A DNA stretch of 41,505 nt from an uncultured Alphaproteobacteria bacterium (GTDB lineage Bacteria > Pseudomonadota > Alphaproteobacteria > SP197): NCBI GenBank assembly GCA_938048755.1, contig CALIUG010000211.1, forward strand, positions 1 to 41,505, read 5' to 3'. The notes beneath the pieces are model-generated. The model had not been told where the DNA came from, made no database searches, and was given only the letters and a program-made list of their open reading frames with translations. Positions 14,622 through 25,474 of the stretch are shown here, in pieces. The position numbers and the translations under genes were made by a program. Each line of letters opens with the position of its first letter. Position 1 is the stretch's first letter.

Positions 14622-14689
14622 CAGGGCCAACGTGGCGATCACACAGCGTTGACTGGACGATGATCGTCAGTCTGCCGCAGGCTTGTGAT

Positions 14690-15663
14690 ATGAAAACGCG
14701 CCTGATCCTGCCTGCACTGGCTGTCCTGTTGGTTTTCGGCGGTACAGCCCACGCTCTGGACCTCTGGTCAAACGAATGGCCGGTCACGGATTTCGAGAAC
14801 CGGTCCATCGAACTCGATGAAATCCTGTCGGGCGGTCCGCCCAAGGACGGCATTCCCTCAATCGACGATCCCGTGTTTGTGCCTGCCGCTACGATGGATG
14901 ATCTTCCCGACCTGGAGCCGGTCATAAGCGTCGTGGTTGATGGTGAGGCCCGCGCCTATCCCTTGCGCATTCTGATGTGGCACGAAATCGTCAACGACAC
15001 CGTGAACGGCATGCCGCTGACCATCACGTTCTGCCCCCTGTGCAATACCGGCATTGTATTCGAGCGGGAGATCGACGGTGTCGTCTATGATTTCGGCACG
15101 ACGGGCAAGCTGCGCAATTCCGATCTGGTCATGTATGACCGGCAGACCGAAAGCTGGTGGCAACAGTTTCTTGGGCTGCCATCGTGGGGGACATGAACGG
15201 CACGCGCCTGACCCCTTATCCTTCCAGACTGGAGTCCTTTGCCCGGTTCAAGGAACGGCATCCCGACGGCATGGTTCAGGTGCCCAACAACGAAGGCAGC
15301 CGACAGTACGGGTCGAACCCCTATGCCGGCTATGACAGCCGCGATGCGCCCTATCCCTTCTTCAAGGGCGATCTGCCCGAGAATGTGCCACCCCTTTCAC
15401 GCGTCGTCCGGGTTGATGATCAGGCATGGGCGCTTGCGTTCGTACAATCACAGGGACGGATCGAGGACGGCGATCTGGTCATTACCTGGGAACCCGGCCA
15501 GGCGTCGGCCCTGGACGAACGCGAAATTGCCGCAAGTGTGGATGTCGGCAACATCGTCGTGCAGCGCCGGACAGAAGAAGGTCTGGTCGATGCGGTCTAC
15601 ACCGTGGACTTCGCCTTTGCCTTCTTTGACTTTTATCCCGACAGCGTGATCAGGACGGAGTAG
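14690..15663 (+). pseudogene. DUF3179 exported protein, split by a one-base frameshift
   Basis: The first part (14690 to about 15174) starts with a signal peptide (MKTRLILPALAVLLVFGGTAHA) and contains AYPLRILMWHEIVNDTVNG and the DUF3179 hallmark TFCPLCNTGIVFER. It runs to WWQQFLG and then enters a stop at 15194-15196. The second part continues in another frame from about 15175 as AAIVGDMNGTRLTPYP through FFKGDLPENVPPLSRVV to the natural end at 15661-15663. Adding one base beside the GGG at 15173-15175 restores an uninterrupted L-G-A-A-I-V-G join. No canonical -1 slippery heptamer is seen, so a lost base (mutation or sequencing) is likelier than programmed shifting. The family is of unknown function and usually exported. 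The upstream in-frame ATG at 14660 is an alternative start. Confidence 0.8.
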
Positions 15664-18091: not shown

Positions 18092-18475
18092 TCATTCCGC
18101 ATCAGGGCTGTTTGCCTTGAGATAGGCAATGACATCGGCGATGTCCTGTGGGTCGTTCAGCCGGAAGGTCATCTTGGCGCCCGCAATGAACTGTGCTGGA
18201 CCCTGGAGCCACGCACTCAAAGTTTCCTCATCCCAGACGATACCCGATGAAGCGACTCCGTCGGAGTAACGGTCGAACCCTTCGGAGGTTCCGGCCGTGC
18301 GCCCGTAGACGCCGAAGAGATTGGGCCCCTGCTTGGCGCGCCCGCCCTCATCGATCGTGTGGCAACTCTGGCAGCGTTTGAAGAGGTCTTCACCGGCGGC
18401 TGGGTCGCCATCGGCATGAACACCAGGAGAAAGCAACAAGGCAGCGGCAAAGACGGAAGGTATATGCTTGTTCAT
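18092..18475 (-). CDS. Class I (c2-type) periplasmic cytochrome c
   Basis: 127 residues. A signal peptide (MNKHIPSVFAAALLLSPGVHA) precedes the mature domain DGDPAAGEDLFKRC. The haem c site CQSCH lies at residues 35-39 and the likely distal ligand is Met102 in AKMTF; QGPNLFGVYGRTAG and the C-terminal DIADVIAYLKAN helix are standard for class I cytochromes c. It is a soluble single-haem electron carrier in the periplasm. It is last in a minus-strand series with the rhodanese and the cysteine-rich P460 protein (gaps 53 and 5 bases), so it is a plausible electron acceptor for the P460 domain. That partnership is inference from gene order. Confidence 0.92.
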   Translation of the reverse strand: MNKHIPSVFAAALLLSPGVHADGDPAAGEDLFKRCQSCHTIDEGGRAKQGPNLFGVYGRTAGTSEGFDRYSDGVASSGIVWDEETLSAWLQGPAQFIAGAKMTFRLNDPQDIADVIAYLKANSPDAE

Positions 18476-18528
18476 GAAGAAACCTCAGGCGTTAACATTG
18501 ACGTCGATGGCGCTCAGGAACGCTTCCA

Positions 18529-19017
18529 TCAGGAGCATTCAGAGCACGGTTCGGTGGGAAGGCCTCGGGCGATCCAGCCGGGACCATCTCCACTTCCAAG
18601 CATGCCTTCACCGACATCGAGAACCTGCGTGAAACCCCGATCACGCAACAGGTCGGCTGCGAACGCGGTACGCACGCCACCGGCGCAAATGAGGGCAATC
18701 GGACGGTTCCTGTCACCATTGGCGGCTTCAAGAATTTCAACGACGAAATCGAGATTGGGCACGCCCCAGTCGCTGTAGAGACTGACCAGCACAGCATCAG
18801 GAGGAATGCCGGTTTCTTCCCACTCCCCCTGCGTTCGGATGTCAATGATCAGGAGTTCATCTTCCTGGGCACGTTCCCAGGTATCCTGGGGTGTGATCAA
18901 TCCGGTTTCGTCGGCCTGGACTGCGGTTGAAAAGCAAACCAGGCACAGAACGAACAGAAGGGACGGGCCGGTGATGGCCCATCCCTTCCTGCTCGCGACC
19001 TCAAGAAAGGTCGTCAT
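18529..19017 (-). CDS. Exported rhodanese-domain protein
   Basis: 162 residues. After a basic start, residues about 12-35 (WAITGPSLLFVLCLVCFSTAVQA) form a signal peptide. The rhodanese domain shows DELLIIDIRTQGEWEETGIPPDAVLVSL and the active-site loop ICAGGVRTA with Cys111 followed by an Arg, then VLDVGEGMLGSGDGPGWIARGLP. The catalytic Cys and the Asp/Arg pair are present, so sulfur transfer from a sulfane donor to a thiophile is plausible in the periplasm. The protein ends in an additional CSEC, a vicinal pair that could bind metal or receive sulfur. It sits 5 bases after the cysteine-rich P460 gene, suggesting a shared transcript and a role in sulfur handling for that protein. Confidence 0.87.
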   Translation of the reverse strand: MTTFLEVASRKGWAITGPSLLFVLCLVCFSTAVQADETGLITPQDTWERAQEDELLIIDIRTQGEWEETGIPPDAVLVSLYSDWGVPNLDFVVEILEAANGDRNRPIALICAGGVRTAFAADLLRDRGFTQVLDVGEGMLGSGDGPGWIARGLPTEPCSECS

Positions 19018-19022
19018 GCCTC

Positions 19023-20873
19023 TTACATCCGGAACTCTTCGGGGATGAAGAGAACGGAGTCACGCTCTGCATAGACATGGCAGTCAATACAGAAGGCGAC
19101 ATCGCCCGAACCCGCACCGTTGGTGGTCCCGATAACGTTGCCGTTGGGCATCACCAGGGTATAGCGCCAGTCTTGGCTTTCGGCATCGAAGCCTGCAGGC
19201 ATCTTCTCCATGACAAAGAGCGGACCGGCAACCACAGTTCCCTTGCCCGAGACAGCAAAGCTGTCCTTGGCCAGGACCGTGCCGACCGGCAAGGCTGCAC
19301 CATCTTCATACTCGCCGTAACTTGCGGCACCATCGCCGTTGGCAATGTTGTTCACGAAGCGTCCACCGTGTGTGTAGGACTTGTAAGCCACAGTATTGAA
19401 CTGCTCCCAGGCACCATAGGAATCAGCGATCTCGAGCCCGCTGGCCGACATCAGGCCGGACTTGGCATAACCGGCATGAAGCTGACCCTTGATGCAGTCA
19501 TAGGCGGCCTGGGCCTCTTCGTTGGTGAGGTCGATATCGGCACCGGCACCGCAGGCGCCACAGCCACCGCACGCATCGCAACCGCCACAGCCGCCGCAGC
19601 CCGCGGCACAGGGATTACAGGCCGCGCAGGGCTTGCACGGATTGCACGCTGCGCAGGGATTGCAGCCACCACAGGCCGCTGCACAGGGGTTGCACGCACC
19701 GCAGGCTCCGCAAGCGCCACAGGCCGAGCAGGCTCCGCATGCGCTGCAGCCAGCAGCCCAGCCCGATGCCTCGGGAAGACTTGCGCCGCAGGCACCACAG
19801 CCACCGCACGCACCACAACCACCGCAGGGATTGCTGGACCACGCGATACGCGGCACTTCACAGCCTGAGTCATGCGCTGCTGCGCAAGGATTGCAGCCGC
19901 CACAGGCACCACAGGCCCCGCACGCTCCACAAGCGCCACATCCGCCACAGCTGGCAGCACACGGATTACAAGCACCACAGGCCGCTGCGCAGGGGTTGCA
20001 AGCAACACAGGCACCGCATGCGCCGCAGCCTGCAGCCATACCGGTCGCGACTGCGAGGTTCGCACCACAACCGCCGCAGCCGCCGCACGCGCCACAACCG
20101 GCTGCACAGGGATTGCAGGGATCACAGGCCGCGCAGGGGTTACAGCCACCGCATGCAGCTGCGCAGGGATTGCAGGCCGAGCAGGCGCCACAAGCGCTGC
20201 AGCCGGCAGCCATGCCGGTCGCTACTGCGAGGCTGGCACCGCATCCGCCACAACCACCGCACGCACCACAACCGGCCGCACAGGGATTGCAGGCATCACA
20301 TGCAGCACAAGGATTGCAGCCGCCACACGCTGCTGCGCAGGGATTGCATGCCGAGCAGGCACCACAAGCGCTGCAGCCCGCAGCCATGCCGGTCGCTACT
20401 GCAAGACTGGCGCCGCAGCCGCCACATGCACCGCAGCCGGCCGCACAGGGATTGCAGGCGTCACAGGCCGCACAAGGGTTGCAGGCACCGCACGCTGCCG
20501 CACAGGGATTGCAGGCCGAGCAGGCATCACAGCCGGCAGCCATGCCGGTCGCAACATCAAGACTTGCTCCGCAGCCGCCACAACCACCGCACGCGCCACA
20601 AGCACCACATCCTGCAGCGCAGGGATTGCAGGCACCACACGCTGCTGCACAGGGGTTACAGGCTGAACAGGCATCGCAGGCGCTACAGCCTGCCGCCAAC
20701 CCGGTGGGAGCCGGAACGGCCTCCGGGTTCGTTGCTGCGGGAGCCGCGTAGGTCGCATTCGACGATGCACGGCCACAAGGGACCGGCGTTGCGCCGATGG
20801 CGATCACCGCGCCTGCACCCATGACCGCGGGGAACACCGTGGTCGACAGCAGATTGCGCTTGAGTTGGAACAT
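19023..20873 (-). CDS. Exported protein with about 100-Cys CxxC-type repeats fused to a cytochrome P460 domain
   Basis: 616 residues, GGAGGC upstream of the ATG at 20871-20873. Residues 1-40 look like a signal peptide with an Ala/Gly-rich core. Residues 63-445 form six repeat blocks of 52, 52, 58, 58, 93 and about 70 residues, opening with CSACxACSACNPC-like units and, except the last, closing with a spacer like GASLAVATGMAAG (variants in blocks 1, 4 and 5). I count about 100 Cys there, almost all spaced C-x2-C, with Gly, Ala, Asn and Pro between. Residues about 446-616 match the cytochrome P460 family: HGGRFVNNIAN, GTVLAKDSFAV, GPLFVMEKMPAGFD, WRYTLVMPNG and the haem c site CIDCH at 595-599. 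P460 enzymes oxidise hydroxylamine or NO, or detoxify them; whether the Lys-haem crosslink exists is not decidable here. The Cys array could bind metals or Fe-S, or store sulfane sulfur. It reads with the rhodanese and cytochrome c. Confidence 0.9.
   Translation of the reverse strand: MFQLKRNLLSTTVFPAVMGAGAVIAIGATPVPCGRASSNATYAAPAATNPEAVPAPTGLAAGCSACDACSACNPCAAACGACNPCAAGCGACGACGGCGGCGASLDVATGMAAGCDACSACNPCAAACGACNPCAACDACNPCAAGCGACGGCGASLAVATGMAAGCSACGACSACNPCAAACGGCNPCAACDACNPCAAGCGACGGCGGCGASLAVATGMAAGCSACGACSACNPCAAACGGCNPCAACDPCNPCAAGCGACGGCGGCGANLAVATGMAAGCGACGACVACNPCAAACGACNPCAASCGGCGACGACGACGACGGCNPCAAAHDSGCEVPRIAWSSNPCGGCGACGGCGACGASLPEASGWAAGCSACGACSACGACGACGACNPCAAACGGCNPCAACNPCKPCAACNPCAAGCGGCGGCDACGGCGACGAGADIDLTNEEAQAAYDCIKGQLHAGYAKSGLMSASGLEIADSYGAWEQFNTVAYKSYTHGGRFVNNIANGDGAASYGEYEDGAALPVGTVLAKDSFAVSGKGTVVAGPLFVMEKMPAGFDAESQDWRYTLVMPNGNVIGTTNGAGSGDVAFCIDCHVYAERDSVLFIPEEFRM
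19539..20687 (-). repeat. Coding tandem repeat region (six Cys-rich blocks)
   Basis: This is the DNA encoding residues 63-445 of the P460 fusion protein. The blocks are 156, 156, 174, 174, 279 and about 210 bases and share the GASLxVATGMAAG boundary or a variant of it. On the plus strand the region is dominated by gca/acag-type triplets because nearly all Cys codons are TGC. Blocks 3 and 4 are nearly identical in protein, pointing to recent duplication; blocks 5 and 6 are longer and more diverged. Within blocks a second level of repetition exists (CNPCAA and CGACGGC units of 6 to 9 residues). Such an array is prone to copy-number change by slippage or recombination. Confidence 0.9.
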
Positions 20874-21009
20874 GGGTTGGGAAGCCTCCGGTTATCATGT
20901 TTGAACGTCACGACTTTGTGTCGGACGGACTGTCGCGAAGTCTGGAACACTTGCCCCTCGACAACAGCCCTCGATGCAAACCATATCCATTCCCCGCGAG
21001 GACAAACCA

Positions 21010-21915
21010 ATGAAAGGCTTTCACGTTCGTGTGAGACCGCAAGTTCTTGATACCCGCGCCCTTGCGGCGATTCTGGTCAGTCTGATGTTTGTGCTTCCCA
21101 CCGCATGGGCGGACGAGTCGGGAGCCGACGATCTGTACCTTGAGACCATCGAGATACCAGCGGGCCCGTTTATCGCCGGATCGGATCAGGCAGAACGGGA
21201 GACCGCTTATGCCCTGGACGAAGCTGCCTATGGTCACAGCATGACCCGGGAATGGGGCTGGTACAATGACGAACGTGACCGCCAAACCCTTGATCTGCCG
21301 ACCTATTTCATTACGAAGAACCTGATCACCCAGGCCGACTATGCGCGCTTCGTGGATGCCACCGGCCACCGAGCGCCCGATATCGACCAGGCAACATGGG
21401 ATGCCTATGGGTTGATCCACCCTTACGAGCGCACCCGTCCCTATGCCTGGGTCGATGGCGCACCGCCTCCCGACCGTCTGCATCACCCTGTGGTGCTGGT
21501 CAACCATGCCGATGCCCAGGCCTTTGCCGCATGGATGTCGGACATCACCGGCCAGACCTGGCGGTTACCCACTGAGCTTGAACTGGAGAAAGCCGCACGC
21601 GGCACCGATGGACGCCTGTTTCCATGGGGCGATGTCTGGGACCCGAATCGGTTGAACAGCCATGATGCGGGTCCCTTCGGGACCGTCCCCGTGGGGTCCT
21701 ATCCAGCCGGGGCCAGCCCGTTCGGCATGCTTGATGCCGTAGGGCAGGTGTTTGAATGGACAGCAGACGAGCAACGCCCCGGACGCTATTGGGTCAAGGG
21801 CGGCTCATGGGATGACAAAGGTTGCGGTGTCTGCCGGCCGGCATCGCACCATGGCCGGCCTGAGGGCATTCAGCACATTCTGATCGGCTTCAGATTGGTG
21901 CTGGAATCCTCATAG
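21010..21915 (+). CDS. Exported SUMF1/FGE-fold protein (formylglycine-generating-enzyme-like)
   Basis: 301 residues from the ATG at 21010, chosen over 20974 because GAGGA precedes it at the right distance. Residues about 1-34 form a signal peptide ending in PTAWA. The SUMF1 (C-type-lectin-like) domain follows: IPAGPFIAGS, YFITKNLITQADYARFVDATGH, VNHADAQAFAAWMSDITGQTWRLPTELELEKAARGTDGRLFPWGD, then GSYPAGASPFGMLDAVGQVFEWTAD, KGGSWDDKG and the end GFRLVLESS. True FGE uses two Cys in a C-x4-C-type copper site; here the only nearby pair is C272/C275, spaced C-x2-C, so canonical FGE activity is doubtful. It is divergent from the Cys-rich P460 gene across 136 bases and may modify or organise that protein in the periplasm (inference). 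Confidence 0.85.
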   Translation: MKGFHVRVRPQVLDTRALAAILVSLMFVLPTAWADESGADDLYLETIEIPAGPFIAGSDQAERETAYALDEAAYGHSMTREWGWYNDERDRQTLDLPTYFITKNLITQADYARFVDATGHRAPDIDQATWDAYGLIHPYERTRPYAWVDGAPPPDRLHHPVVLVNHADAQAFAAWMSDITGQTWRLPTELELEKAARGTDGRLFPWGDVWDPNRLNSHDAGPFGTVPVGSYPAGASPFGMLDAVGQVFEWTADEQRPGRYWVKGGSWDDKGCGVCRPASHHGRPEGIQHILIGFRLVLESS

Positions 21916-22220: not shown

Positions 22221-22413
22221 CTGCGTGTTCCTTGTTCTTCCAGGCCTTACACGGGCCAGCAATGATCGGTCATACGCCGGCATGCGCCTTCTGGATCGCA
22301 GAGATGGTGATGACCGGCACATTTACGCAAACAACTTGGATCACCAGCAGTTGATGCAGGCCGCAGGGCTTCAGCCGGTTGAAAGCGCGGCTGCAAATCG
22401 CCATCCTCTCTGC

Positions 22414-23172
22414 ATGGCCAGTGCAACTCCATCGACGACACAGGTTCCGGCAGCGTCGGATATCCCGCCCCGCACAAAGCTCGAAGATCTCGACCGGGAG
22501 ACGCTCGAACGTATGCTGGAGGCGGGCAAGGATGTTCTGGAGTGCTATCGCGTCCTGAAGAAAACCAACGACAACATCGTTGGCGAGCTGCTGCGCGATA
22601 CCGGCACGTTCTATCAGTGGCAGCATTACCCCAAGGGCGACATCTTCGACCGGGACAGTCACAGCCAGTACTATTATCACGCCCACCCGAAGGATCAGCG
22701 TCCGGGAGAACACGGCCATTTCCACACCTTCAAACGTGCATCGGGCATGAAGCGCGGCGTCGAGCCGGTTCCCTATGATGGTGACGCAACCTGGCCGGTG
22801 GGCACCGATGCGCTGAGTCACCTGATCGCCATTTCCATGGACCCCAAGGGCTTTCCCATCGGCATGTTCACGGTCAACCGCTGGGTCACAAGCGAATCCT
22901 GGTACAAGGCGAGCGACGTGTGCGACATGGTCGATACCTACGAGATCGACCACGCCCGCCCGTCATGGCCGGTCAACCGTTGGATCACCGGCATGGTGGG
23001 TTTGTTCAGCCCCCTGGTGAAGGATCTGATCCGCGAGCGTGACCTGGCCCTTGAAATCCGCCGCAGCACCCATCCTGGCGATGTCTATGAAGACAAGGGG
23101 CTGGAGGTCACCTCGCAAAGCCCCATCTCGGTGGAAAAGCAGATCACCCGCCTGCGCGCGCTTCTGGCCTGA
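22414..23172 (+). CDS. DUF6969-like cytoplasmic protein
   Basis: 252 residues from the ATG at 22414. No signal peptide is present. The sequence begins with a helical region (TKLEDLDRETLERMLEAGKDVLECYRVLKKTNDN) and then has a His-rich core: QWQHYPKGDIFDRDSHSQYYYHAHP followed by GEHGHFHTFKR, then ALSHLIAISMDPKGFPIGMFTVNRWVT and a second VNRWITGM segment. The H-x-H patterns resemble metal-binding sites, but the reaction is unknown. The frame is open upstream to 22225 and a start at 22282 is possible; neither has a good Shine-Dalgarno sequence. My assignment to DUF6969 is from memory of the conserved motifs and should be checked. A strong terminator follows at 23263. Confidence 0.6.
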   Translation: MASATPSTTQVPAASDIPPRTKLEDLDRETLERMLEAGKDVLECYRVLKKTNDNIVGELLRDTGTFYQWQHYPKGDIFDRDSHSQYYYHAHPKDQRPGEHGHFHTFKRASGMKRGVEPVPYDGDATWPVGTDALSHLIAISMDPKGFPIGMFTVNRWVTSESWYKASDVCDMVDTYEIDHARPSWPVNRWITGMVGLFSPLVKDLIRERDLALEIRRSTHPGDVYEDKGLEVTSQSPISVEKQITRLRALLA

Positions 23173-24637: not shown

Positions 24638-25399
24638 CTAGGCTGTGGACTCATAAACGCGTAGCCAGATTCGAATCGCCGCTAGCTTGACGAATGCAAG
24701 AAAATTTGCCGCTCGCTTCTCGTACCGCGTGGCTATGCGGCGGCAATGTTTGATTCGGTTGAAGAACCGCTCGACCAGGTTCCGATCGCGATAGAGAAAC
24801 GGGCTGAAGCAGATCGGATTACGCCGATTATGCAGAGGCGGTATGTTTGCCCAGGCACCGTTCGCAGCGACAAGAGACCTGATCGCATCCGAGTCATAGG
24901 CCTTGTCGGCCAGAAGCATCCCGTCCTCGGGTATATCGCCGAGAAGATCAGCTGCGCTCAGGCTGTCATGTTGATGCCCGGGCGTTAGGGCCAACTTAAT
25001 CGGCAAGCCGTTTGCGTCGACCACCGCATGGATCTTGGTCGTCAATCCGCCGCGGGACCGGCCAAGCTCTTCATCAGTGCCACGCTTGATGCACGTGGCG
25101 TGCTGGTGCGCCCGAACAATCGTGCTGTCAATCATCTGAACCTCGGCATGGTCGCGATGCGAGATGGCGATCAGGATGCGGTCCCAGACGCCTGCACATC
25201 GCCAGCGGACGAACCGGTTGTAACATGTCGTATAAGGGCCGTATCGTTCTGGAAGGTCGCGCCATGGCGCTCCCGATCTCAAAATCCAGAAGATGCCGTT
25301 CAGAAACCGCCTGTCGTCCACGCGTGGGACACCTCGCGGCTTGTAGGGCAAGACGGGTTTGATGAGACACCACTCGGCGTCAGTGAGTGCATAGCGCAT
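24638..25399 (-). CDS. IS5-family DDE transposase
   Basis: 253 residues from the ATG at 25397-25399 (MRYALTDAEWCLIKPVLP). The N-terminal helix-turn-helix/DUF4096-like part includes DDRRFLNGIFWILRSGAPWRDLPERYGPYTTCYNRFVRW. The catalytic triad is visible: Asp in MIDSTIVRAHQH, Asp in LLADKAYDSDAIR, and Glu in NLVERFFNRIKHCRRIATRYEK, where the Y-2-R-3-E-type signature is met by R-F-F-N-R-I-K. The frame is intact and near full length for one-ORF IS5 elements, so it could be active. The frame extends nine codons further upstream, but MRYALTDAEW is the usual start of this family. Confidence 0.93.
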   Translation of the reverse strand: MRYALTDAEWCLIKPVLPYKPRGVPRVDDRRFLNGIFWILRSGAPWRDLPERYGPYTTCYNRFVRWRCAGVWDRILIAISHRDHAEVQMIDSTIVRAHQHATCIKRGTDEELGRSRGGLTTKIHAVVDANGLPIKLALTPGHQHDSLSAADLLGDIPEDGMLLADKAYDSDAIRSLVAANGAWANIPPLHNRRNPICFSPFLYRDRNLVERFFNRIKHCRRIATRYEKRAANFLAFVKLAAIRIWLRVYESTA

Positions 25400-25474
25400 T
25401 TGGCCTCCTCCCTTTCGGCGCTTCAAAAGAGCGCGACCCGGCCCTTAGCAGCTTGGCGGCGAAAATCTACAGTT
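24638..25474 (-). mobile_element. IS5-family insertion sequence (approximate ends)
   Basis: A single DDE transposase gene fills this roughly 0.83-kb unit. The transposase stop (TAG) is formed at CTAG (24638-24641), which matches the YTAR-type target site favoured by IS5 relatives. Near the left end, CTGTGGACTC resembles the complement of the sequence near 25464-25472 (CTGTAGATTT), suggesting short imperfect inverted repeats. I could not find a clear matching target duplication on the right, so the right boundary is approximate and the element may be slightly decayed. The flank to the right is visibly more A+T-rich than the rest of the window. Confidence 0.65.

Follow-up and report, generated by a model that had tools for sequence, protein, structure and literature searches.

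Very high cysteine content and small spacers characterize the metallothioneins and the Csp copper storage proteins. The bufferins (Buf_EGKCG/oxazolins) are exported, cysteine-rich proteins with up to 58 cysteines, a dedicated oxidative enzyme (MNIO) and a role in copper protection, and a fusion of a bufferin, a cytochrome c and a formylglycine-generating enzyme (FGE) has been reported and tied to copper by the authors (PMC12452194). FGE is itself a copper enzyme that oxidizes cysteine at the target site CXPXR, is strongly affected by mutation of Cys336 and of Cys341, and has been proposed to release H2S in its chemistry (PMC4505483). We analyzed a stretch of 41,505 nucleotides from an uncultured alphaproteobacterium (contig CALIUG010000211.1; hereafter the window), in which one gene joins a very dense cysteine array to a cytochrome P460 domain, with genes encoding an FGE-like and a DUF6969 protein beside it. 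The array, the FGE-like gene and the DUF6969 gene are associated across genomes; this observed association suggests that related bacteria handle thiols or metals by a system not yet described, and the three may form a system of their own.

A cysteine array joined to a cytochrome P460 domain

The array gene and its parts are as follows.

19023..20873, minus strand: Cys-array/P460 fusion gene, 616 amino acids (open reading frame [ORF] open over 616 codons)
20784..20873, minus strand: N-terminal signal-like leader, residues ~1-30 (basic start, then a hydrophobic run)
19539..20687, minus strand: cysteine array, residues 63-445 (100 Cys, mostly C-x2-C)
19845..19862, minus strand: mid-array motif CEVPRI, residues 338-343 (conserved non-repeat element of related arrays)
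19026..19538, minus strand: cytochrome P460-fold domain, residues 446-616 (profile, predicted fold, Foldseek)
19266..19268, minus strand: Lys536, the P460 haem cross-link position (invariant; alignment to solved P460s)
19077..19091, minus strand: haem c site CIDCH, residues 595-599 (sequence)

The window protein holds 104 cysteines, 100 of which sit within the 383 residues from 63 to 445, bearing out the dense C-x2-C array of about 100 cysteines that a preliminary description of this gene had reported. Across the whole protein, 81 of the 103 cysteine-to-cysteine steps are three residues long (C-x2-C) and 12 are four. The array is 26% cysteine; its 100 Cys are accompanied mainly by Ala (107), Gly (80), Pro (23) and Asn (20), hydrophobic residues are scarce, and the arrays of many relatives contain lysine as well. 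Chance or a wrong reading frame as the origin of the array is ruled out by the codon pattern and by a comparison of all six frames of the window, in which the densest stop-free stretch of 100 codons holds 29 cysteines in the array and at most 11 elsewhere. Tandem Repeats Finder (TRF) reports a 174-bp period with 3.8 copies and 80% matches in the array gene. Between two adjacent 58-residue units (the one equal-length pair compared), 25/58 codons differ, 23 synonymously and 2 nonsynonymously, and all 15 shared cysteines are kept, 5 of them in codons that differ; this synonymous excess shows that selection acts on the protein and not on the DNA. Assembly may have altered the copy number of the 174-bp repeats (the window genome is in 301 contigs). 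Despite that doubt, the shorter arrays of Pelagibius litoralis (L046, 38 Cys) and Aestuariispira insulae (L006, 32 Cys) show that this kind of dense cysteine array is real. The leader, judged by eye from the sequence like those of the other window proteins, makes export of the window protein likely; to that extent the periplasmic location proposed earlier stands, the compartment itself being what we infer.

By profile and by predicted structure, the C-terminal domain is a cytochrome P460 fold. The window sequence alone misses the curated PF16694 cut-off of 27 (20.8 bits for the whole protein, 24.0 bits for the domain alone), and phmmer finds no match for it in the PDB at E ≤ 10. When 33 domain sequences including that of the window were scanned, every one matched PF16694 at E ≤ 0.01 (best 1.6e-11), and a profile of these domains reaches the solved chains 7s5o (9.9e-6), 7ead (1.1e-3), 8gar (8.6e-3) and 2je2 (1.4e-2). 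The AlphaFold2 (AF2) model has a per-residue confidence (pLDDT) of mostly 90-98 over the domain, and the first 11 Foldseek matches of this model are P460 or c'-beta proteins, 8 of them at E ≤ 0.001, with 2je2 and 9hrk in the lead. Noise as the source of the assignment is thus ruled out by the predicted fold and the profile search, despite the sub-cut-off Pfam score of the single sequence. The earlier proposal that the array is joined to a P460 domain with the haem site CIDCH holds by family matches, profile and predicted fold, while the profile search of residues 446-616 succeeds for the related domains and falls short for the window sequence taken alone.

Both cysteines and the histidine of the haem c motif CxxCH are invariant in 38/38 domains and in 33/33 aligned domains. 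Lys536 is likewise invariant among the aligned domains and pairs with a Lys of 8gar, a Met of 7s5o and a Phe of 7ead; a table in the review PMC11928373 places the cross-link at Lys70 in the N. europaea P460, with Met79 or Phe61 at that position in c'-beta. From this position of Lys536 in the sequence, we expect a cross-linked haem in the window domain. Glu556 is invariant also, and our profile alignments disagree with that same table at the distal carboxylate position. The terms "fusion" and "cysteine-rich" are absent from the consulted text of this P460 review, and a literature search that mostly did not reach subscription papers, and is therefore weak evidence of novelty, returned no paper combining cytochrome P460 with cysteine-rich repeats. 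The window protein is a new P460 protein variant.

It is not the only one of its kind. We gathered 75 P460 loci from a scan of genome contigs, plus those of 15 matching genomes among 96 relatives searched. At least nine cysteines stand ahead of the P460 domain in 56/94 loci (57 ORFs); in the remaining 38 the number is lower, and often zero. The 57 array ORFs include the window, the duplicate loci L077 and L078, and a third ORF of L053 whose cysteines come from upstream read-through. Array-P460 fusions occur in 38/386 alphaproteobacterial genomes, and arrays also exist without P460. Among these relatives the window array has the highest cysteine count (100; the runner-up has 60). Repeat types range from CNPCAAK through NPCAA, with one cysteine per five residues, to CGACGAC. 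The element C-x-[VIL]-P interrupts 47/57 arrays, with arginine next in 42, and is absent from 10 array ORFs, three of them truncated by a contig end. In Pelagibius and its relatives (L013, L042, L045, L046, L053), the array-P460 gene is flanked on both sides by a P460 paralog that lacks a dense array, and the neighborhood also holds cytochrome c genes and a gene for a Sel1 protein.

Array length and spacing vary freely among relatives, as in a tether, and the periplasm is an oxidizing compartment. The array might accordingly belong to a structural or redox envelope protein in which cysteines paired in disulfides form a stiff tether or thiol sink with P460 at its end. We consider this unlikely, given that it leaves the association with the FGE-like and His-rich DUF6969 proteins unexplained. 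The AF2 model, moreover, gives the array no fold (pLDDT mostly 30-37) and predicts it to be disordered without a ligand, though disulfides are still compatible with such a model.

The FGE-like and DUF6969 partners

Across a divergent intergenic region from the array gene lie two genes that the preliminary description overlooked.

20874..20973, no strand: divergent intergenic region, 100 bp, from the array gene to the FGE-like gene (ORF map)
20974..21915, plus strand: FGE-like protein (PF03781) with a signal-like leader (Pfam, 126.7 bits; Foldseek)
21823..21834, plus strand: CGVC pair, FGE-like residues 284-287 (conserved in the alignment)
22225..23172, plus strand: DUF6969 protein (PF22308), no leader seen by eye (Pfam; five invariant His)

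These neighbors are the strongest clue to function. We scored their co-occurrence with the array over the 386 alphaproteobacterial genomes, calling an array-P460 fusion where at least 5 cysteines fall within 40 residues ahead of P460. P460 relatives are present in 58/386 genomes, and 38 of the 41 examined were array positive; the remaining 17, mostly with short open frames, were left unexamined and scored as array negative. An FGE-like ortholog (E ≤ 1e-40) occurs in 30/386 genomes and DUF6969 in 94/386. The FGE-like gene and array-P460 are found together in 24 genomes, the array only in 14, the FGE-like gene only in 6 and neither in 342 (Fisher test, 5e-23). For DUF6969 and array-P460 the corresponding counts are 36 with both, 2 with the array only, 58 with DUF6969 only and 290 with neither (9e-23), and for the FGE-like gene and DUF6969 they are 28, 2 with the FGE-like gene only, 66 with DUF6969 only and 290 (6e-17). 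The FGE-like gene is absent from all 17 unexamined genomes; if some of them carry arrays, the figure for the FGE-like gene and array-P460 becomes weaker.

The association extends to gene order. DUF6969 lies no more than 1 kb from the FGE-like gene in 25/30 genomes (coordinates compared by hand), and tblastn of the window genes places an FGE-like gene near the array gene at 18/55 other array loci versus 0/38 non-array loci. With duplicates dropped, 18/54 array loci have it within 5.5 kb, in 17 cases on the opposite strand; the true number may be higher, because many loci end on that side, and the window's own short fetched locus was scored as without it. Within the same distance, DUF6969 is found at 18/54 array loci and a Sel1 protein at 14/54. 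The FGE-like matches near arrays are 45-67% identical to the window's. Among the 46 genomes reached through the loci, 40 have an FGE-domain match at E ≤ 0.001 and 33 (window included) a match of at least 55% identity, often distant from the array.

The predicted structure of the FGE-like protein matches the FGE superfamily in Foldseek, with ToxD and CalU17 as the closest solved relatives. Its cysteine pair presumably sits in the same C-terminal loop as the pair of FGE. The surrounding motif GGSW[DN]D[KSR]GCG[VI]CR is retained in all 14 rows with an intact C-terminus, the window's included. In family f185, from another class (L219-L227), the first cysteine of the pair is lost in 9/9 loci from 8 genomes (GGSWDDxGG[VI]CR); neither the 1.5 kb around these genes nor five longer stretches showed an array. 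This loss, seen in one family, fits an array-linked role for the cysteine pair. At L124, in the genome of L032, a tryptophan replaces the first cysteine and a TGA falls inside the match.

Conservation of this pair also bears on whether the array is primarily an enzyme substrate, in which the FGE-like protein would turn the cysteine of C-x-x-P-R (or array cysteines) into formylglycine or another oxidized residue, for covalent attachment or as a metal site. The conserved non-repeat element C-x-[VIL]-P(-R) does resemble the CXPXR site of FGE (PMC4505483), with the proline shifted by one. We regard this substrate reading as quite improbable: the element also occurs in arrays whose genomes lack an FGE-like match (e.g., L002 in G097 and L082 in G073), it is missing from the FGE-linked arrays of L030, L036, G300 and G434, and its proline stands at +3, that of CXPXR at +2.

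Six of the 30 genomes with the FGE-like gene have no P460 match (G008, G054, G095, G300, G390 and G434), an absence rechecked by a profile search that was run without a positive control. Five of the six (G008, G390, G095, G300 and G434) nonetheless carry a stand-alone cysteine array close to the FGE-like gene. That of G008, from the window's genus, has 24 cysteines, and that of G095 lies ~1 kb from the FGE-like gene, past DUF6969. At L123, in Aestuariispira, a stand-alone array stands between the FGE-like and array-P460 genes. What stays constant in the association with the FGE-like and DUF6969 genes is thus the cysteine array and not P460. Over the phylum, 14/397 sampled genomes have an FGE-like match at E ≤ 1e-50. 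The best one outside the Alphaproteobacteria is in G749, from another class, where two tandem arrays (L268, 1117-2296) lie on another contig than the FGE-like gene and the second continues into a cytochrome c domain of the SoxA/TsdA type (30.5 bits against a cut-off of 27).

Could the FGE-like protein simply be an ordinary sulfatase-activating FGE that lies beside the array by coincidence? Nine sulfatase matches occur in the window genome, 6 of them with C-x-P-x-R; its sole other PF03781 match is partial (64.7 bits), and sulfatase matches occur in 12 of the 14 genomes searched. Against these points, G095 (100% complete) and G237 (98%) have no sulfatase match at E ≤ 1e-5 and still hold the FGE-like gene near an array, 8 of the 14 genomes hold another, higher-scoring PF03781 protein, and the FGE-like gene stays near arrays even where P460 is missing. 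We judge an incidental sulfatase activator to be the least probable of the readings weighed here.

In the DUF6969 protein, five histidines, Asp44 and Asn120 are invariant across 39 sequences (the window's and 38 of the 60 fetched). A search of the PDB gave no convincing match (best E 1.2), and no paper names DUF6969 in a literature search with little reach into subscription journals, which is weak evidence of novelty. We sampled 60 of the 66 DUF6969 genomes without an FGE-like ortholog, one locus each, and judged arrays by eye. A cysteine array lies within 300 bp of DUF6969 at 15/60 loci (three are array-P460 genes; 11 of the 15 lie upstream on the same strand) and within 2.5 kb at 21/60; every other candidate row in this inspection was taken as a shadow frame. 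A composition detector matched 23/60 of these loci, three of which were dropped as shadow frames (L283, L331 and L337), and its four matches on 34 control loci look shadow-frame-like too. The arrays upstream of DUF6969 at L330, L324 and L338 have very different repeats, and the array at L333 is without a leader. Arrays of CCAAEG (L330, 3182-3520), CSPCGAG (L324, 3518-3832) and CGGSHAGD (L327, 3190-3585) adjoin DUF6969; two of the three precede it on the same strand, and the third is convergent with it. The codon pattern for NPCNPC matched 25 of 216 genomes searched. By hand comparison, 12 of the 18 listed multi-match places fall within 2 kb of a DUF6969 gene, six of them in genomes without an FGE-like ortholog, and seven NPCNPC loci have no array ORF (L236, L237, L244, L246, L248, L255 and L261). 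Zeros from such patterns prove nothing, since both miss known arrays: NPCNPC gives 0 matches in the window genome, and C-x-x-C-x-x-C missed the known arrays of G008 and G300.

Proposed function of the array

We propose, tentatively, that the array is an exported metal-thiolate scaffold, probably for Cu(I), served by the FGE-like and DUF6969 proteins. An array that is predicted to be disordered when empty and has close thiols and small spacers suits metal-thiolate clusters. Largely without structure of its own, the scaffold would take up numerous soft metal ions on its thiols in the periplasm, most likely Cu(I), like a very large metallothionein. Two dedicated proteins would serve the whole set of arrays, whether stand-alone, P460 fused or cytochrome c fused: DUF6969, a putative metalloenzyme rich in histidine, would act in the cytoplasm before export of the array, and the FGE-like protein, as an exported copper enzyme, would act on the array cysteines afterward. 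The P460 haem might supply the scaffold with a redox or ligand-binding partner. We infer export, the compartments, the binding of metal, copper as that metal, and modification of the array by either protein.

A more specific proposal is possible, if rather unlikely: that these genes make up an undescribed maturation system, in which cytoplasmic DUF6969 and an exported FGE-like CxxC copper oxidase jointly convert array cysteines to metal-binding or redox groups, the arrays being modular and joined to haem domains (P460 or SoxA/TsdA-type cytochrome c).

Several observations weigh against the scaffold proposal. The co-occurrence p values ignore phylogeny. No FGE-like ortholog was found in 14/38 array-P460 genomes, which means that the FGE-like protein is not indispensable, and in most Kiloniellaceae/Pelagibius-type loci the FGE-like gene lies elsewhere in the genome. 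Array-P460 is missing from 58/94 DUF6969 genomes, and 39 of the 60 sampled DUF6969 loci have no array inside 2.5 kb. The FGE-like pair is CG[VI]C, a C-x2-C, in 14/14 rows, departing from the C-x4-C spacing of FGE. No array was seen near the FGE-like gene of G054, none stands beside that of G749, where the cysteine pair is kept, and none was found in G733, outside the class, whose FGE-like protein also keeps the pair. Finally, no copper-transport gene was recognized among the recurrent neighbor clusters, which were partly Pfam scanned.

If the scaffold proposal is true, many environmental Alphaproteobacteria hold a thiol- or metal-handling system built from genes other than those of bufferin systems, DUF6969 gains its first function and FGE-like enzymes a non-sulfatase substrate. 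Cysteine arrays would become linked to the P460 haem, whose known chemistry is that of NO and hydroxylamine, and the role in an oxidizing compartment of exported runs of dozens of cysteines becomes testable.

Neighboring genes and described systems

Two further genes share the orientation of the array gene, which by sequence makes a single transcript over 18092-20873 plausible.

18529..19017, minus strand: rhodanese (PF00581) with a signal-like leader (Pfam)
18092..18475, minus strand: class I cytochrome c (PF00034) with a signal-like leader (Pfam)

Cytochrome c recurs in 19/55 other array loci (tblastn, duplicates included) and in 18/54 in the second count, within 5.5 kb. The leadered rhodanese lies near 8/55 other array loci (tblastn, duplicates included), or 6/54 once the window is added and two duplicates are removed. 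Its presence raises the possibility that the array carries sulfane sulfur or persulfide, which rhodanese loads or unloads and haem partners oxidize. The fusion of one array to a SoxA/TsdA cytochrome c favors such a role, as does the H2S release proposed for FGE (PMC4505483). Rhodanese is, however, only a minority neighbor, and no sox gene was recognized among the recurrent, partly Pfam-scanned neighbors. We know of no sulfur role for P460. Overall we find a sulfur carrier decidedly improbable, slightly more so than the substrate reading.

Clusters of sufB and sufC each recur in 5 array loci and an Rrf2 regulator in 6; we judged this recurrence local and set a link between SUF and the arrays aside. 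Upstream of FGE-linked arrays, 6 loci encode a small conserved protein that by eye resembles an exported cupredoxin (L017, L018, L024, L036, L044 and L055; for example, L017, 3146-3676), and the two of the six that were scanned matched no Pfam family. Elsewhere in the window, a DUF3179 protein (plus strand, 14660-15663) is broken into overlapping frames: one half of the profile matches 14660-15196 and the other half 15157-15663, which indicates a frameshift or sequencing error. An ORF at 24638-25426 (minus strand) resembles an IS5-type DDE transposase by eye and may mark the module edge.

The window domain shares with the P460/c'-beta superfamily (N. europaea 2je2, M. capsulatus 9hrk) the fold, the CxxCH motif and the lysine at the cross-link position, and differs from known P460s in its fusion to a cysteine array and its sub-cut-off Pfam score. 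The FGE-like protein shares the PF03781 fold superfamily with FGE (SUMF1; 1y1e, 6muj), while its pair is C-x2-C and that of FGE, Cys336/Cys341 in the numbering of PMC4505483, is C-x4-C. A literature search found no paper joining cysteine-rich periplasmic proteins, formylglycine-generating enzyme and copper, with the same limited coverage as above. With the metallothioneins and Csp proteins the arrays have in common high cysteine content, small spacers and, in many relatives, lysine near cysteine, but they are far longer, probably exported and haem fused, with no family match and no predicted helical bundle.

The bufferins (PMC12452194) are the closest parallel, being likewise exported, cysteine-rich, in some cases very long and partnered by an oxidative enzyme; the bufferin partner is MNIO, whereas those of the arrays are DUF6969 and the FGE-like protein. 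Of the 14 array or FGE-like genomes searched for MNIO (PF05114), 9 have a match somewhere, while the window genome (92.66% complete), G008, G300, G095 and G237 have none; we set an MNIO-type bufferin identity aside on the lack of an MNIO match in the window genome. Pfam and NCBIfam models (not the hidden Markov models of PMC12452194 itself) detect no bufferin/EGKCG domain in the window protein or in ten array-bearing relatives. Apart from the cytochrome c domain, ten array-bearing sequences, nine of which consist of an array alone, gave no above-cut-off match to Pfam or NCBIfam, and the array searches gave one irrelevant family match (E 0.079). Given the lack of an MNIO match in the window genome and of family matches for the arrays, the array and its partners would work like a bufferin or metallothionein system while being a member of neither.

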